This document shows, one piece after another, positions 6,920-26,681 of a stretch of 56,929 bases of DNA (the stretch's first letter is position 1; each line of letters begins with the position of its first letter). The DNA is from an uncultured Erysipelotrichaceae bacterium (GTDB lineage Bacteria; Bacillota_I; Bacilli_A; Erysipelotrichales; Erysipelotrichaceae): NCBI GenBank assembly GCA_949744505.1, contig CATJXY010000059.1:1-56929 (forward strand). Reading direction: 5' to 3'. Position numbers and translations under genes: made by a program. Under the pieces are notes generated by a model. That model saw only the letters and a program-made list of their open reading frames with translations, was not told where the DNA came from and made no database searches.

Positions 6920-9900
6920 ATGAAAAGAAAGTTATCTCGTATGAGTATATTTATACTCAGTTTATTAATGATGATCAGTTCATTTTCTATTACCCCTGTT
7001 TTTGCGGAAGAAGAGGAAATTTTGGACGATACAGAAGAAATTACTGAGGTAAGTGAGATTGAAGAAACAGAAAATTCAGAGGAAAGTTCGATTGAAGAAT
7101 CTGAGTTAGAGAATGAAGTGGAAGAATCAAGTGAAGATGAACTGATGAATATTTCTCACAATGATGAAATTGAAGTTTATGCTTCTTCAGAGGATGATAA
7201 AACTCCGTATGTCGAGTATGACTTTAATAACAACTTAACAGATTTGCAAGGTCATGCAGTCTTAACAGCTTGGAGTTCTGTTGGAAGTGATAATCGTAGT
7301 AATAGTTCAACTTCTTTTGGATCGGATAAAACAAATGGTTCTTATTGGCAATGGCATTCCAATACCGCAAGAGGTGGAGGATTTTATATTGATATCGATA
7401 AGAATATCGGTGATGAATACACGATTGGTTTGAAATTTTCTTTTGAAGTTATAGATGGTAGTTGGAAAAAAATTATTGATTATAAGAATTCTACATCAGA
7501 TACCGGATTCTATTTTTATACCGGAAATCATTTAAATTTCTATAACTATGGTGTAAATGGGGCAAGTGTTACCAATTCAAATCAAGTTGTTGATATGATT
7601 GTTCGAAGAAACAGAACAACCAAAGAATTTGAGGCATATATTGTTAATAATGGAACAGCATATTTGGATATGAGTGTTTCTGATAGTGGAGATCAAGGAG
7701 TTCCTGCTGTTATTAACGGAAAAACACGATTGGGTTTCTTCTTTGATGATATTGCTACAACATCGGAAGCAACTCCGGGTGGAAAAGTTTATAATCTAAA
7801 GATTTGGGATAGTTACATGGACCCGAAAGATGTAATTGAAGCACTTAAACCGGGAGGAACGGTAATTGCACATTATATTGATGAAGATGGGGATGAGGTA
7901 TTACCTGATGTTAAAGTCAGTGGATTTATCGGGGATACATATGAAGTAAAATCACAAGAAGTTTATGGATATGAATATTTAAGATCAGAAGGAGCTGCAA
8001 CATCGGGAACATTGCCTGATAATGGTTCAATTACTGTTAAATTCATTTATAAATGTTTAATTCCTTATACGGTAACGGCAAGATATGTCGATGAGAGCGG
8101 AAATAAGCTGTGTGAGGATATCCTATATAAAGGAGAAGAAGGAAAAACATATCAACTTCATCAGTTAGAAATTGAAGACTATGATTTTGTCAGGGTTGAA
8201 GGAGATGAAACCGGAACTTATACAAAAAAACCTAAGTTAGTCACTTATGTTTATAAGAAAGAAGAAATTCCGCCGGTTTTAGAGGAAAGTACTGTTTATG
8301 CTTCTTATGTTGATGAAGAAGGAAATCAGTTAATTTCAGATGCAATCTACAAAGGATATATTGATAATCCATACCAAACATCTCAACTTACGATTCCGGG
8401 GTATGAAATCAAGCAAGTAAACGGAAGTGCAGTCGGAGTTTATATGAAGGATCCGATTCAAGTTGAATATGTTTATACGAAAAAGGAAACAGAAGAAGAT
8501 TTAGGTGGAACTGTCTTAGTTCATTACAAAGATACACAAGGATATACAATCAGTGCCGATGCTTTATTTGAGGGTCAGATTGGGGATCTCTATGCAGCAG
8601 AGAAAAAGGAATTTACCAAATATAAATTTGATAAGGTCATCGGATCTGAAAAAGGAGAAATTAAGCAGGAAATTCAAGTTGTTACAATCGTTTATGCTCC
8701 TTTAGCAAGTAATGTCTTGGCAAGATATGTGGATGAAAATGATCTGACAATAGCGGATGCGGAAGTTTACTCCGGTGGAATCGGGCATCAATACAGTACA
8801 CAGAAAAAAGAGATTGATGGATATAAATTGATTAAGATAGAAGGAAATGAAAAAGGAGTTTTCAGCGAACATGTTCAAGTAGTGAAATATGTTTATGGAC
8901 AAATCGGAAATATTCATGTGAATTATTTAGACTTGGATGGTAAAAAGATTCATGAATCAAATAATTATACTGATTTTGTAGGAAAGGACTACAAAACAAA
9001 AGCTTTGGATATTTACAGTTATGAATTAGTCAGAGTTGAAGGAAATGAAGAAGGAAAATACCAAGTAGGTGATCAAACAATCAATTATATCTATGAAAAA
9101 ATAATTGTCGGTGATGTGAATGTTCATTATTTGGATGAATCCGGAAATAAAATTGAAGAGGATAAACTACTCTTTGGACGACTCAATAGTCCTTATCAAG
9201 TAGAAATACCACAATTCCATGGATATGAACTGATTAAGACAGAAGGAAATCTTAGTGGAAATTATGCTGAAAAGGCACAGGAAGTAACTTTGATTTATCG
9301 TTTAACAATGCCAAAAACAGTAACGGCAAGATATGTGGATGAAGATGGTAATTTGTTATGTTCTGATATAGTTTACAAAGGAAATTTGGGAACATTGTAT
9401 AAGACATCCCAATTGGAAATTAAGAATTATGATTTTGTTGAAGTAATCGGAAATGTAAGTGGATTCTTCACAAGAGAGCCTCAGCTTGTTACGTATGTTT
9501 ATAAGAAAAAAGAGAATCAAGTTGAAATCGGAAAAGTCTTGGCAAAGTATGTCGATGTAGACGGAGTGGAACTTCACAGTGATTTAGTTTATAAAGGACA
9601 AATCGGGAATTCTTATAAAACATCACCTCTTACGATGCCGGGATATGAATTGAAAGAAGTAGTGGGAATAGAACAGTCTACATTTAAGAGTGAAGAACAA
9701 ATCGTCACTTATATCTATGAGGAAAAAGAAAATGTTGATCCGATAGGAGGGACAGTCCTTGTAAAGTATGAAACAGAAGAAGGAATAACAATTCATGAGG
9801 ATAATATCATTAATGGATTGATTGGAGATCCTTATCAAGTAGAACAGTTAGAACTATCCGGCTATACATTTAAGAGAATGGAAGGTCCGTTCTATGATCA

Positions 9901-10540
9901 TGCATTCTTCCGTTTAGCACGAAATATTGAATCTGAAGGTGAAATTGAAGAGTTTATTAAAGTGATTCATTTAATTTATGAACCTGTTGATAAAGAGAAA
10001 GTACCGGCAACAACAGTCATTGCCAAATATGTGGATAAAGATGGTAATTTAATTCATTTTGATCAAATTTATAATGGTCTTGTCGGGGATGAATATAAAA
10101 CTGAGCAGGTTGCGATTGACGGATATGAGCTTGTAAGAGTAGAGGGGGAAGAAAGCGGATATTTTAATGAAGAAGTACAGCTTGTTACTTATGTTTATGG
10201 TAAGCTTGGAAAAGTAGTGATTACAATTACCGATGAAGAGGGAAATGTAATTAAGGAAGTAATTATTACCGGTGTTATCGGTGAAGAAATTAAAGTAGAT
10301 GATATTGAGATTGATGGTTATGAACACATTCGTGGAGAAATCAACGGAGTATTCTCTGAGGATCAAAAAGAAGTTACATTTGTGTATAAGGATCTTAATA
10401 AGAAACAAGAAAGTACGGATAATTCCTCAGTTCCGGTAGTTAATACAGCAGATGAAAGCAATCGTTTGTTCTACTTTGGGTGGATGCTTATTTCATTTAT
10501 CACCATGATTGAATTAAAAAGAAGATTAAAAAGTCGTTAA
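6920..10540 (+). CDS. Large surface protein with lectin-like domain and twelve MucBP-type repeats
   Basis: A 1206-residue cell-surface protein. It has a signal peptide ending around TPVFAEEEE (residue 30), a very acidic Glu/Ser stretch to about residue 92, and a concanavalin/LamG-like beta domain (about 95-305). Twelve repeats of about 62 residues follow (about 313-1160). Each begins like VxARYVDEDGN, has GxxGxxYxTxxLxIxGYEL and ends like GxYxxxxQxVTYVYK, which is the MucBP (mucin-binding) pattern. The tail has VVNTADESN, a hydrophobic helix and a basic KRRLKSR end. That resembles a sorting signal, but without canonical LPxTG. GGAGG precedes the ATG. A role in adhesion to mucus or host glycans is inferred from domain content. 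Confidence 0.88.
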   Translation: MKRKLSRMSIFILSLLMMISSFSITPVFAEEEEILDDTEEITEVSEIEETENSEESSIEESELENEVEESSEDELMNISHNDEIEVYASSEDDKTPYVEYDFNNNLTDLQGHAVLTAWSSVGSDNRSNSSTSFGSDKTNGSYWQWHSNTARGGGFYIDIDKNIGDEYTIGLKFSFEVIDGSWKKIIDYKNSTSDTGFYFYTGNHLNFYNYGVNGASVTNSNQVVDMIVRRNRTTKEFEAYIVNNGTAYLDMSVSDSGDQGVPAVINGKTRLGFFFDDIATTSEATPGGKVYNLKIWDSYMDPKDVIEALKPGGTVIAHYIDEDGDEVLPDVKVSGFIGDTYEVKSQEVYGYEYLRSEGAATSGTLPDNGSITVKFIYKCLIPYTVTARYVDESGNKLCEDILYKGEEGKTYQLHQLEIEDYDFVRVEGDETGTYTKKPKLVTYVYKKEEIPPVLEESTVYASYVDEEGNQLISDAIYKGYIDNPYQTSQLTIPGYEIKQVNGSAVGVYMKDPIQVEYVYTKKETEEDLGGTVLVHYKDTQGYTISADALFEGQIGDLYAAEKKEFTKYKFDKVIGSEKGEIKQEIQVVTIVYAPLASNVLARYVDENDLTIADAEVYSGGIGHQYSTQKKEIDGYKLIKIEGNEKGVFSEHVQVVKYVYGQIGNIHVNYLDLDGKKIHESNNYTDFVGKDYKTKALDIYSYELVRVEGNEEGKYQVGDQTINYIYEKIIVGDVNVHYLDESGNKIEEDKLLFGRLNSPYQVEIPQFHGYELIKTEGNLSGNYAEKAQEVTLIYRLTMPKTVTARYVDEDGNLLCSDIVYKGNLGTLYKTSQLEIKNYDFVEVIGNVSGFFTREPQLVTYVYKKKENQVEIGKVLAKYVDVDGVELHSDLVYKGQIGNSYKTSPLTMPGYELKEVVGIEQSTFKSEEQIVTYIYEEKENVDPIGGTVLVKYETEEGITIHEDNIINGLIGDPYQVEQLELSGYTFKRMEGPFYDHAFFRLARNIESEGEIEEFIKVIHLIYEPVDKEKVPATTVIAKYVDKDGNLIHFDQIYNGLVGDEYKTEQVAIDGYELVRVEGEESGYFNEEVQLVTYVYGKLGKVVITITDEEGNVIKEVIITGVIGEEIKVDDIEIDGYEHIRGEINGVFSEDQKEVTFVYKDLNKKQESTDNSSVPVVNTADESNRLFYFGWMLISFITMIELKRRLKSR

Positions 10541-24107: not shown

Positions 24108-24332
24108 TATAAAGAAATCGATGATGGGGCTAAGTAAATAGATTGCTTAACAAGAGATGTAGTGGTTGGTGCGAACTGCAAAGGAATCTATTGAAATCTA
24201 CCTCTGAGAGAAATTAATACTTTCCGGTAGCAGCCGTTATGTGCATCGAGTGGTAAATGTTTCACGTGAAACATTTACAAAAAGGGTGGCAACACGAGGT
24301 ATCGTCCCTTTATGGGCGATACCTTTTATTTT
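24108..24332 (+). ncRNA. Serine T-box riboswitch in the serS leader
   Basis: A tRNA-sensing leader that lets serS be read when uncharged tRNA-Ser accumulates. The T-box core AGGGTGGCAACACGAGG lies at 24283-24299. Its UGGC would pair with a tRNA end GCCA, matching the G discriminator of tRNA-Ser. A candidate specifier UCU (Ser codon, 24197-24199) lies in the usual GAA-codon-ACC setting on the 3' side of stem I. The competing terminator is GGTATCG-T-CCC (24298-24308) with GGG-CGATACC (24314-24323) and a T-rich tail. Stem III appears to be the parS palindrome at 24253-24278. Confidence 0.9.
24253..24278. other. parS: parS site 1, a 26-bp perfect palindrome inside the T-box leader
   Basis: The core TGTTTCACGTGAAACA (24258-24273) is identical to the ParB/Spo0J-binding consensus of Firmicutes. 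The flanks extend the dyad to 26 bp. As RNA it would fold into an 11-base-pair hairpin with loop ACGU, in the place where T-box stem III is expected. No parA or parB gene is present in the window. Confidence 0.9.
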
Positions 24333-24356
24333 GTCTGGATAGTAAGGAGGATTTAT

Positions 24357-25643
24357 ATGCTAGACATTAATTTGTTGAGAACAAACAAAGAATTAGTTAA
24401 AGAAAATATCAAAAAGAAGTTCCAAGATGCAAAACTTCCTTTGGTTGATGAAGTTGTTGAATTGGATAAGAAGTTCAGAGAAGCTAAGACAGAAGCGGAT
24501 AATCTTCGTGCCCAAAGAAACAAAGTCAGCAAAGAAATTGGCGGATTGATGAAACAAGGATTAAAAGAAAAGGCAGAAGAAGCAAAGAAAGAAGTACAAG
24601 AAATCGGACAGAGAATAGTAGATTTGGAAGCTCTTGAAGAAAAGTTGAGTGCAGATATTAAAAAAATCATGCTTGTTATTCCAAATATTATCGATCAATC
24701 TGTTCCAATTGGAAAAGATGATAGCGAGAACGTTGAAATCGAAAAATACGGAGATCCAATTGTTCCTGAATACGAAATTCCTTATCACGTCGATATTATG
24801 GAAAGTTTTGACGGAATTGATTTGGATGCTGCAAGAAGAGTGAGTGGTAATGGATTCTATTATTTAAGAGGAGATATTGCTCGTCTTCATTCTTCAATAC
24901 TTAGTTATGCCAGAGATTTCATGATTGATCATGGATTTACTTATTATATTCCACCATTTATGATTCATGGTGATGTAGTAACAGGGGTTATGAGTTTCGC
25001 TGAAATGGAAAATATGATGTATAAAATTGAAGGAGAAGATTTGTATTTGATTGGAACTTCTGAACATTCAATGATCGGAAAATTCATCAATCAAATCTTG
25101 GATGAGAAGGACTTGCCTCAAAAATTGACAAGCTATTCTCCTTGTTTCAGAAAAGAAGTCGGAGCACATGGAATTGAAGAAAGAGGTGTTTACCGTATCC
25201 ACCAATTTGAAAAGCAAGAAATGGTGGTAGTATGTAAGCCGGAAGATTCTATGAAATTCTATGATTTATTATGGCAAACTTCTGTTGATTTCTTTAGAAG
25301 CTTAGATATTCCTGTGAGAACATTGGAATGTTGCTCAGGTGATTTGGCAGATCTTAAAGTGAAAAGTTGTGATGTAGAGGCTTGGTCTCCTCGTCAAAAT
25401 AAATATTTTGAAGTGGGTTCATGTTCAAACTTGGGTGACGCTCAAGCTAGAAGATTGGGTATTCGTATCAAAGGAGAAAACGGCAATTATTATGCCCACA
25501 CATTAAACAACACCGTTGTTGCACCGCCACGTATGTTGATTGCATTCTTAGAAAACAATTTGAATGCAGATGGAACTGTTAATATCCCGGAACCATTGAG
25601 AATGTATATGGGTGGTAAAGATAAATTAATCCCAAAGAAGTAA
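24357..25643 (+). CDS. serS: Seryl-tRNA synthetase
   Basis: Class II synthetase that charges tRNA-Ser. The 428 residues have an N-terminal antiparallel coiled-coil arm (about 30-105, rich in Lys/Glu) that grips the tRNA variable arm. The class II motifs follow, including TSEHSMIGKF, SPCFRKEVGAHGIEERGVYRIHQF and the C-terminal NNTVVAPPRMLIAFLENN. The start is the ATG at 24357, 8 bases after AAGGAGG; an upstream in-frame ATG at 24312 lies inside the T-box terminator and is not used. It is regulated by the serine T-box directly upstream. Confidence 0.97.
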   Translation: MLDINLLRTNKELVKENIKKKFQDAKLPLVDEVVELDKKFREAKTEADNLRAQRNKVSKEIGGLMKQGLKEKAEEAKKEVQEIGQRIVDLEALEEKLSADIKKIMLVIPNIIDQSVPIGKDDSENVEIEKYGDPIVPEYEIPYHVDIMESFDGIDLDAARRVSGNGFYYLRGDIARLHSSILSYARDFMIDHGFTYYIPPFMIHGDVVTGVMSFAEMENMMYKIEGEDLYLIGTSEHSMIGKFINQILDEKDLPQKLTSYSPCFRKEVGAHGIEERGVYRIHQFEKQEMVVVCKPEDSMKFYDLLWQTSVDFFRSLDIPVRTLECCSGDLADLKVKSCDVEAWSPRQNKYFEVGSCSNLGDAQARRLGIRIKGENGNYYAHTLNNTVVAPPRMLIAFLENNLNADGTVNIPEPLRMYMGGKDKLIPKK

Positions 25644-25696: not shown

Positions 25697-25712
25697 TGTT
25701 TCACGTGAAACA
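25697..25712. other. parS: parS site 2
   Basis: TGTTTCACGTGAAACA is a perfect 16-bp palindrome matching the ParB consensus. It lies in the serS-downstream gap, 20 bases after the serS terminator, so it is intergenic and not part of a riboswitch. Confidence 0.9.
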
Positions 25713-26516: not shown

Positions 26517-26532
26517 TGTTTCACATGAAACA
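26517..26532. other. parS: parS-like site 3 with one central change
   Basis: TGTTTCACATGAAACA differs from the perfect parS only in the central base (CACATG for CACGTG). The flanks extend the dyad to AAAATGTTTCA / TGAAACATTTT (26514-26535 core). It is 9 bases after the GNAT stop and 13 bases before the SRP RNA promoter. Confidence 0.7.
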
Positions 26533-26544
26533 TTTTAAGTATAC

Positions 26545-26573
26545 TTGCCAAAATCTATGGTTTTGAGTATAAT
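26545..26573 (+). promoter_or_regulatory. Sigma-A promoter of the SRP RNA gene
   Basis: TTGCCA (26545-26550) and TATAAT (26568-26573) with a 17-base spacer lie immediately before the 5' end of the SRP RNA, 8 bases upstream. Confidence 0.88.
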
Positions 26574-26580
26574 AATAAAC

Positions 26581-26653
26581 GGTACAACATTCATATTCGA
26601 ATCGAGTCAGGACCGGAAGGTAGCAGCTATAAGAATCACTGTTTGTGTGTACC
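26581..26653 (+). ncRNA. ffs: Signal recognition particle RNA, small (4.5S-like) type
   Basis: RNA core of the signal recognition particle, which binds Ffh and targets nascent membrane proteins. The diagnostic apical loop GTCAGGACCGGAAGGTAGCA lies at 26606-26625. GGTACA (26581-26586) pairs with TGTACC (26648-26653) to close a single hairpin of about 73 bases. It is therefore the short form without an Alu domain, unlike the long Bacillus scRNA. T-rich sequence follows. Position next to tadA and dnaX matches other Firmicutes. Confidence 0.93.
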
Positions 26654-26681
26654 TTTTATTTTATATTTGAGGTAAAAGAAT

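Follow-up and report, generated by a model that had tools for sequence, protein, structure and literature searches.

The serS T-box leader and its parS palindrome

The window, the whole 56,929-nucleotide stretch of DNA from an uncultured Erysipelotrichaceae bacterium that we analyzed, carries dnaA (1289–2656, + strand; TIGR00362), which marks the oriC region and adjoins a sign change of the GC skew, followed in gene order by dnaN, recF, gyrB, gyrA, and then the T-box leader of serS and serS itself (24357–25643, + strand), encoding a 428-aa serine-tRNA ligase (TIGR00414, 408 bits against a cutoff of 302). A 1206-aa open reading frame near dnaA (6920–10540) resembles an internalin model in part, at a score under the model cutoff. 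The leader (24112–24312, + strand) matches the RF00230 covariance model over its full length and above the gathering score (cmscan, 117.5 bits versus a gathering cutoff of 93, E = 2e-25). Its specifier triplet, placed at 24197–24199 (+ strand) by the specifier-loop column of the Rfam alignment, is UCU (serine), which agrees with the downstream gene; by a rough pattern match, the serS leaders of relatives use various Ser codons as specifier. Further 3′, we found the T-box sequence GGGTGGCAACACG of the antiterminator (24284–24296, + strand; sequence and Rfam match) and an intrinsic terminator hairpin with a U-rich tail (24297–24333, + strand; inverted repeat 24297–24307/24314–24324, fold). The presence of both predicts a terminator/antiterminator switch, and we infer that the leader probably functions as a riboswitch.

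Stem III of this leader is a perfect 26-nt dyad (24253–24278, + strand) with 13-nt arms, and the Rfam stem III pairs are exactly those arms. In the predicted RNA fold, 11 bp close an ACGU loop (−12.2 kcal/mol, z = −5.0), with 0 of 200 shuffles folding equally well. The stem is preceded by GAGUG (24248–24252, + strand) and followed by AA, in agreement with the RRRxG–stem III–AA motif that forms part of the T-box discriminator (PMC7583486); across leaders, RRRxG is present in 94 of 106 and AA in 104 of 106. Within stem III, at 24258–24273, lies parS1, TGTTTCACGTGAAACA, with no mismatch to the 16-bp palindromic consensus. The preliminary description of this DNA had reported a perfect parS in the position of stem III with a dyad extending to 26 bp, and all three observations hold.

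Pattern searches located two more sites, a perfect parS2 directly 3′ of serS (25697–25712), a position common in the family, and parS3 (26517–26532), which has one mismatch (TGTTTCACATGAAACA). The latter precedes the SRP RNA gene (26571–26666) by 38 bp, an arrangement similar to that in locus L229. At up to three mismatches, the window holds 3 parS-like sites versus 0.42 expected, and pattern searches at up to two mismatches found only these three (at 24258, 25697, and 26517) in the 1.85-Mb genome. They thus form a cluster of few copies close to oriC, all within 2.3 kb and with parS1 ~22 kb from dnaA. The window count, the genome total, and the recurrence of the site in more than 100 related genomes together exclude chance.

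A separate contig of the same genome carries rsmG-noc-soj-parB, encoding Noc, Soj, and ParB. The ParB matches Spo0J structures (6sdk, E 1e-61) and has R and G, within GKSR and SMGHAR, at the equivalents of Caulobacter positions 173 and 201 (R173/G201), while the genome's Noc has Q and R at these two specificity positions; R/G is diagnostic for parS-binding ParB, and Q/R marks Noc (compare PMC7383237). The genome therefore encodes a cognate ParB with parS-type specificity residues, and we infer that ParB would bind the stem III parS in vivo.

parS in stem III across the Erysipelotrichaceae

We scanned genome contigs for the 14-bp parS core with a T-box sequence no more than 32 nt 3′ of it, which returned at least 118 stretches, nearly all from Erysipelotrichaceae. 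Among the matches listed, serS lies directly downstream in 103, and the remainder are unrelated or are ended by a contig edge. We excluded matches from Actinomycetota, Pandoraea, Falsiroseomonas, and Chloroflexi, as no serS was found downstream and no T-box-like context was seen by eye. By pattern, 104 of 273 family genomes have the exact core in stem III, or 103 after removal of one genome (G127, locus L113) whose parS is upstream of the expected stem III position; there, the core falls in the apparent stem II region of a differently built serS leader. When counting good-quality family genomes, the core is found in 68 of 152, and it is present in 19 of 60 genera. A reversed control pattern gave no matches among the 273 family genomes. 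One- or two-base parS variants in stem III add ~13 family genomes, for ~116 of 273 with parS or near-parS at this position.

Beyond the family, two more genomes of the order match, as do seven from a sample of other orders in the class, and the trait extends to further families of Bacilli, Natribacillus (Bacillaceae) among them. In Natribacillus halophilus, the leader lies in the Bacillus gene order pdxS-pdxT-leader-serS and contains parS; its T-box (L065) scores 114 bits, and the downstream reading frame starts with MLDIKYIRQNEGEV, the start of SerS. On an unrooted SerS tree, the trait requires at least 5 changes, compared with ~30 when labels are shuffled. The stem III parS is therefore mostly inherited, with a few gains or losses, the two being indistinguishable on an unrooted count.

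Of the 273 family genomes, 223 have a perfect parS, typically with about two copies in each. At the loci examined, most second sites lie directly behind serS, 1.37–1.47 kb away from the T-box copy, and a parS is found behind serS also in genomes whose T-box is without one. parS beside serS is thus a habit of the family; the T-box copy is additional, often placing parS on both sides of serS, and is sometimes the sole site, as in G167, whose 2.2 Mb hold no other parS-like site (up to two mismatches).

Separate constraints on the DNA core and the RNA arms

Upstream of stem III, the serS leaders are only ~55% identical, yet the parS core recurs, and sister lineages without parS keep a stem III hairpin of unrelated sequence. 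These two observations indicate that T-box function alone does not dictate the parS bases. The main match sets were chosen on the exact core, and our evidence for core conservation is accordingly drawn from the family tally and from near-parS leaders. The latter include those with the stem TGTTCCACGTGGAACA, present in four genomes that belong to genus group g24 (read as Erysipelothrix-like), and that of G178, in which all three parS sites, the T-box copy included, read TGTTACACGTGTAACA with the same altered half-site. This shared variant is as expected if the T-box copy tracks the preference of the genome's ParB.

Outside parS, the stem arms vary in sequence but keep pairing. Arm positions are paired in 447 of 551 cells versus 330 ± 9 with shuffled partners (0/2000), and with one leader per SerS cluster (<80% identity), 130 of 150 are paired versus 94 ± 5 in shuffles. 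In this SerS-thinned set, A·C cells are depleted (0 versus 5.9). The flanks of 117 other parS sites behave differently, with 41–54% paired at positions 4–7 versus 67–85% in the T-box arms. An asymmetry between G·U and A·C (raw 63 to 17) was dropped because shuffled partners already give ~2 to 1 from composition; of these data, we used only the depletion of A·C and other mismatches as evidence.

Within the core, pairing is not absolute, since the near-parS variants of G205 and G271 each break one stem pair. We also considered symmetric core changes as proof of selection on the RNA and rejected them, as they occur at non-T-box parS sites too. Symmetric double changes at T-box versus other parS sites differ by site counts (p = 0.017) and not significantly by clade counts (p = 0.62), leaving compensatory change within the core only suggestive of RNA selection.

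Probable dual use of the palindrome

The conserved core, the pairing of the outer arms, the clustering of sites near oriC, and the cognate ParB all support dual use. On this comparative sequence evidence, one set of bases appears to be maintained both as a ParB loading site in DNA and as T-box stem III in RNA, a reading to which we assign a probability of about 0.86. As double-stranded DNA, the palindrome would be an oriC-proximal parS at which ParB-CTP loads, marking and segregating the origin region. As a transcribed strand, it would form stem III, a variable but necessary helix of the discriminator that senses aminoacylation. Stem III requires a helix, of whatever sequence, between the RRRxG string and AA, so that parS, as a perfect palindrome, can sit there without cost to the RNA. 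Selection by ParB would hold the 16-bp core and, within it, the ACGT that the RNA uses merely as a loop, and selection on the T-box would hold the pairing of arms that reach beyond the core.

The hairpin could instead be an accident of parS symmetry, the palindrome merely lying in the leader and serving only as parS; any transcribed parS forms a hairpin, and the 14-nt core is enough for a stem. We consider this improbable, and it was already disfavoured by the position of the palindrome, exactly between the RRRxG and AA motifs, by arms that pair far more beyond parS than at other parS sites, and by parS-negative relatives that have a non-parS hairpin at the same place. The opposite reading, in which the sequence is kept for T-box reasons and is unused by ParB, draws on the usual proximity of a second parS, which would make loss of the T-box copy tolerable. 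Stem III sequence is, however, variable in T-boxes generally (PMC7583486) and in the sister lineages, and a conserved ACGT loop would not be expected from RNA function. Neither would a T-box copy with the same altered half-site as the other parS sites in its genome, as in G178, or one that, as in G167, has no other parS-like site (up to two mismatches) beside it, and we judge this reading very improbable.

The dual role proposed in the preliminary description is thus strengthened by comparative evidence, with the qualification that many relatives keep stem III without parS, so that the hairpin does not need parS. The condition that it named as refuting, relatives keeping the hairpin but losing the parS bases, has a mixed though informative outcome: the parS or near-parS leaders tallied above have co-varying arms, and other relatives keep the hairpin without parS.

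Relation to known parS sites and T-boxes

In its consensus (TGTTTCACGTGAAACA), few copies, location near oriC, and noc-soj-parB genes, the system resembles chromosomal ParABS of the B. subtilis Spo0J/parS type, from which parS1 differs in also being the helix of a regulatory RNA, with a dyad extended beyond 16 bp by RNA pairing. The leader likewise resembles serS T-boxes (RF00230) in its stem I with a Ser specifier, RRRxG–stem III–AA, T-box sequence, and terminator; unlike in usual T-boxes, where stem III is variable, the stem here has a set sequence, that of parS, and its ACGU loop is self-complementary. A further parallel is with parS3 and parS4 of Pseudomonas aeruginosa, which also lie beside a gene start and may influence expression; their effect is that of ParB on DNA, without an RNA element, whereas the window site has one (PMC7022226). 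We found no described case of a parS overlapping a T-box or riboswitch in the open-access literature, a search that could miss a description in a subscription journal, and to that extent the overlap is undescribed, as the preliminary description had it. The parS and the T-box are each ordinary members of their families; the novelty, by the open-access literature, lies in their sharing one set of bases, an overlap maintained across many genera. Dual use would provide a natural case of one stretch of bases that encodes both protein recognition of DNA for chromosome segregation and RNA folding for gene control, and would show that the variable stem III sequence is open to reuse for another purpose.

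Possible crosstalk between ParB and serS

Dual use might extend to coupling, as the preliminary description suggested, in which ParB bound at the stem III parS, or loaded from it, alters serS elongation, for example as a roadblock near the stem III pause site. Conversely, transcription of serS could remove ParB or restrict its loading. For glyQS, pausing has been reported at stem III (PMC6197855), ParB at the intergenic parS3 and parS4 represses adjacent genes in P. aeruginosa (PMC7022226), and parS often flanks serS on both sides. Against this, many relatives have a parS directly downstream of serS instead and none in the T-box. In B. subtilis, parS sites lie inside transcribed DNA without known regulation, which we also count against coupling. 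We regard coupling in either direction as a speculative possibility, and on the unlikely side. Rather doubtful is a full centromere-riboswitch fusion, in which ParB occupancy would modulate elongation at the T-box pause site, serS transcription would modulate ParB loading, and segregation would thereby be coupled to serine supply. The locus would nonetheless be a tractable spot for studying encounters of RNA polymerase with an RNA hairpin and a ParB clamp on the same base pairs, most of all in species where no parS-like site other than the T-box copy was found.

Several other sites also deserve mention. At L190:404, L207, L025:6907, L038, L215:1996, L221, and L200, the parS dyad is extended by 6–10 bp and followed by a T-run, so that parS is apparently the stem of an intrinsic terminator, at some of these loci directly behind serS. 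At L235:1695, there is a further TGTTCCACGTGAAACA, separated from the T-box parS by ~400 bp and apparently within the coding sequence of serS, and G257, G260, G261, and G262 have an extra site at a similar offset. Finally, a glmS ribozyme match lies upstream of serS at L131:212-363, on the strand opposite to serS.
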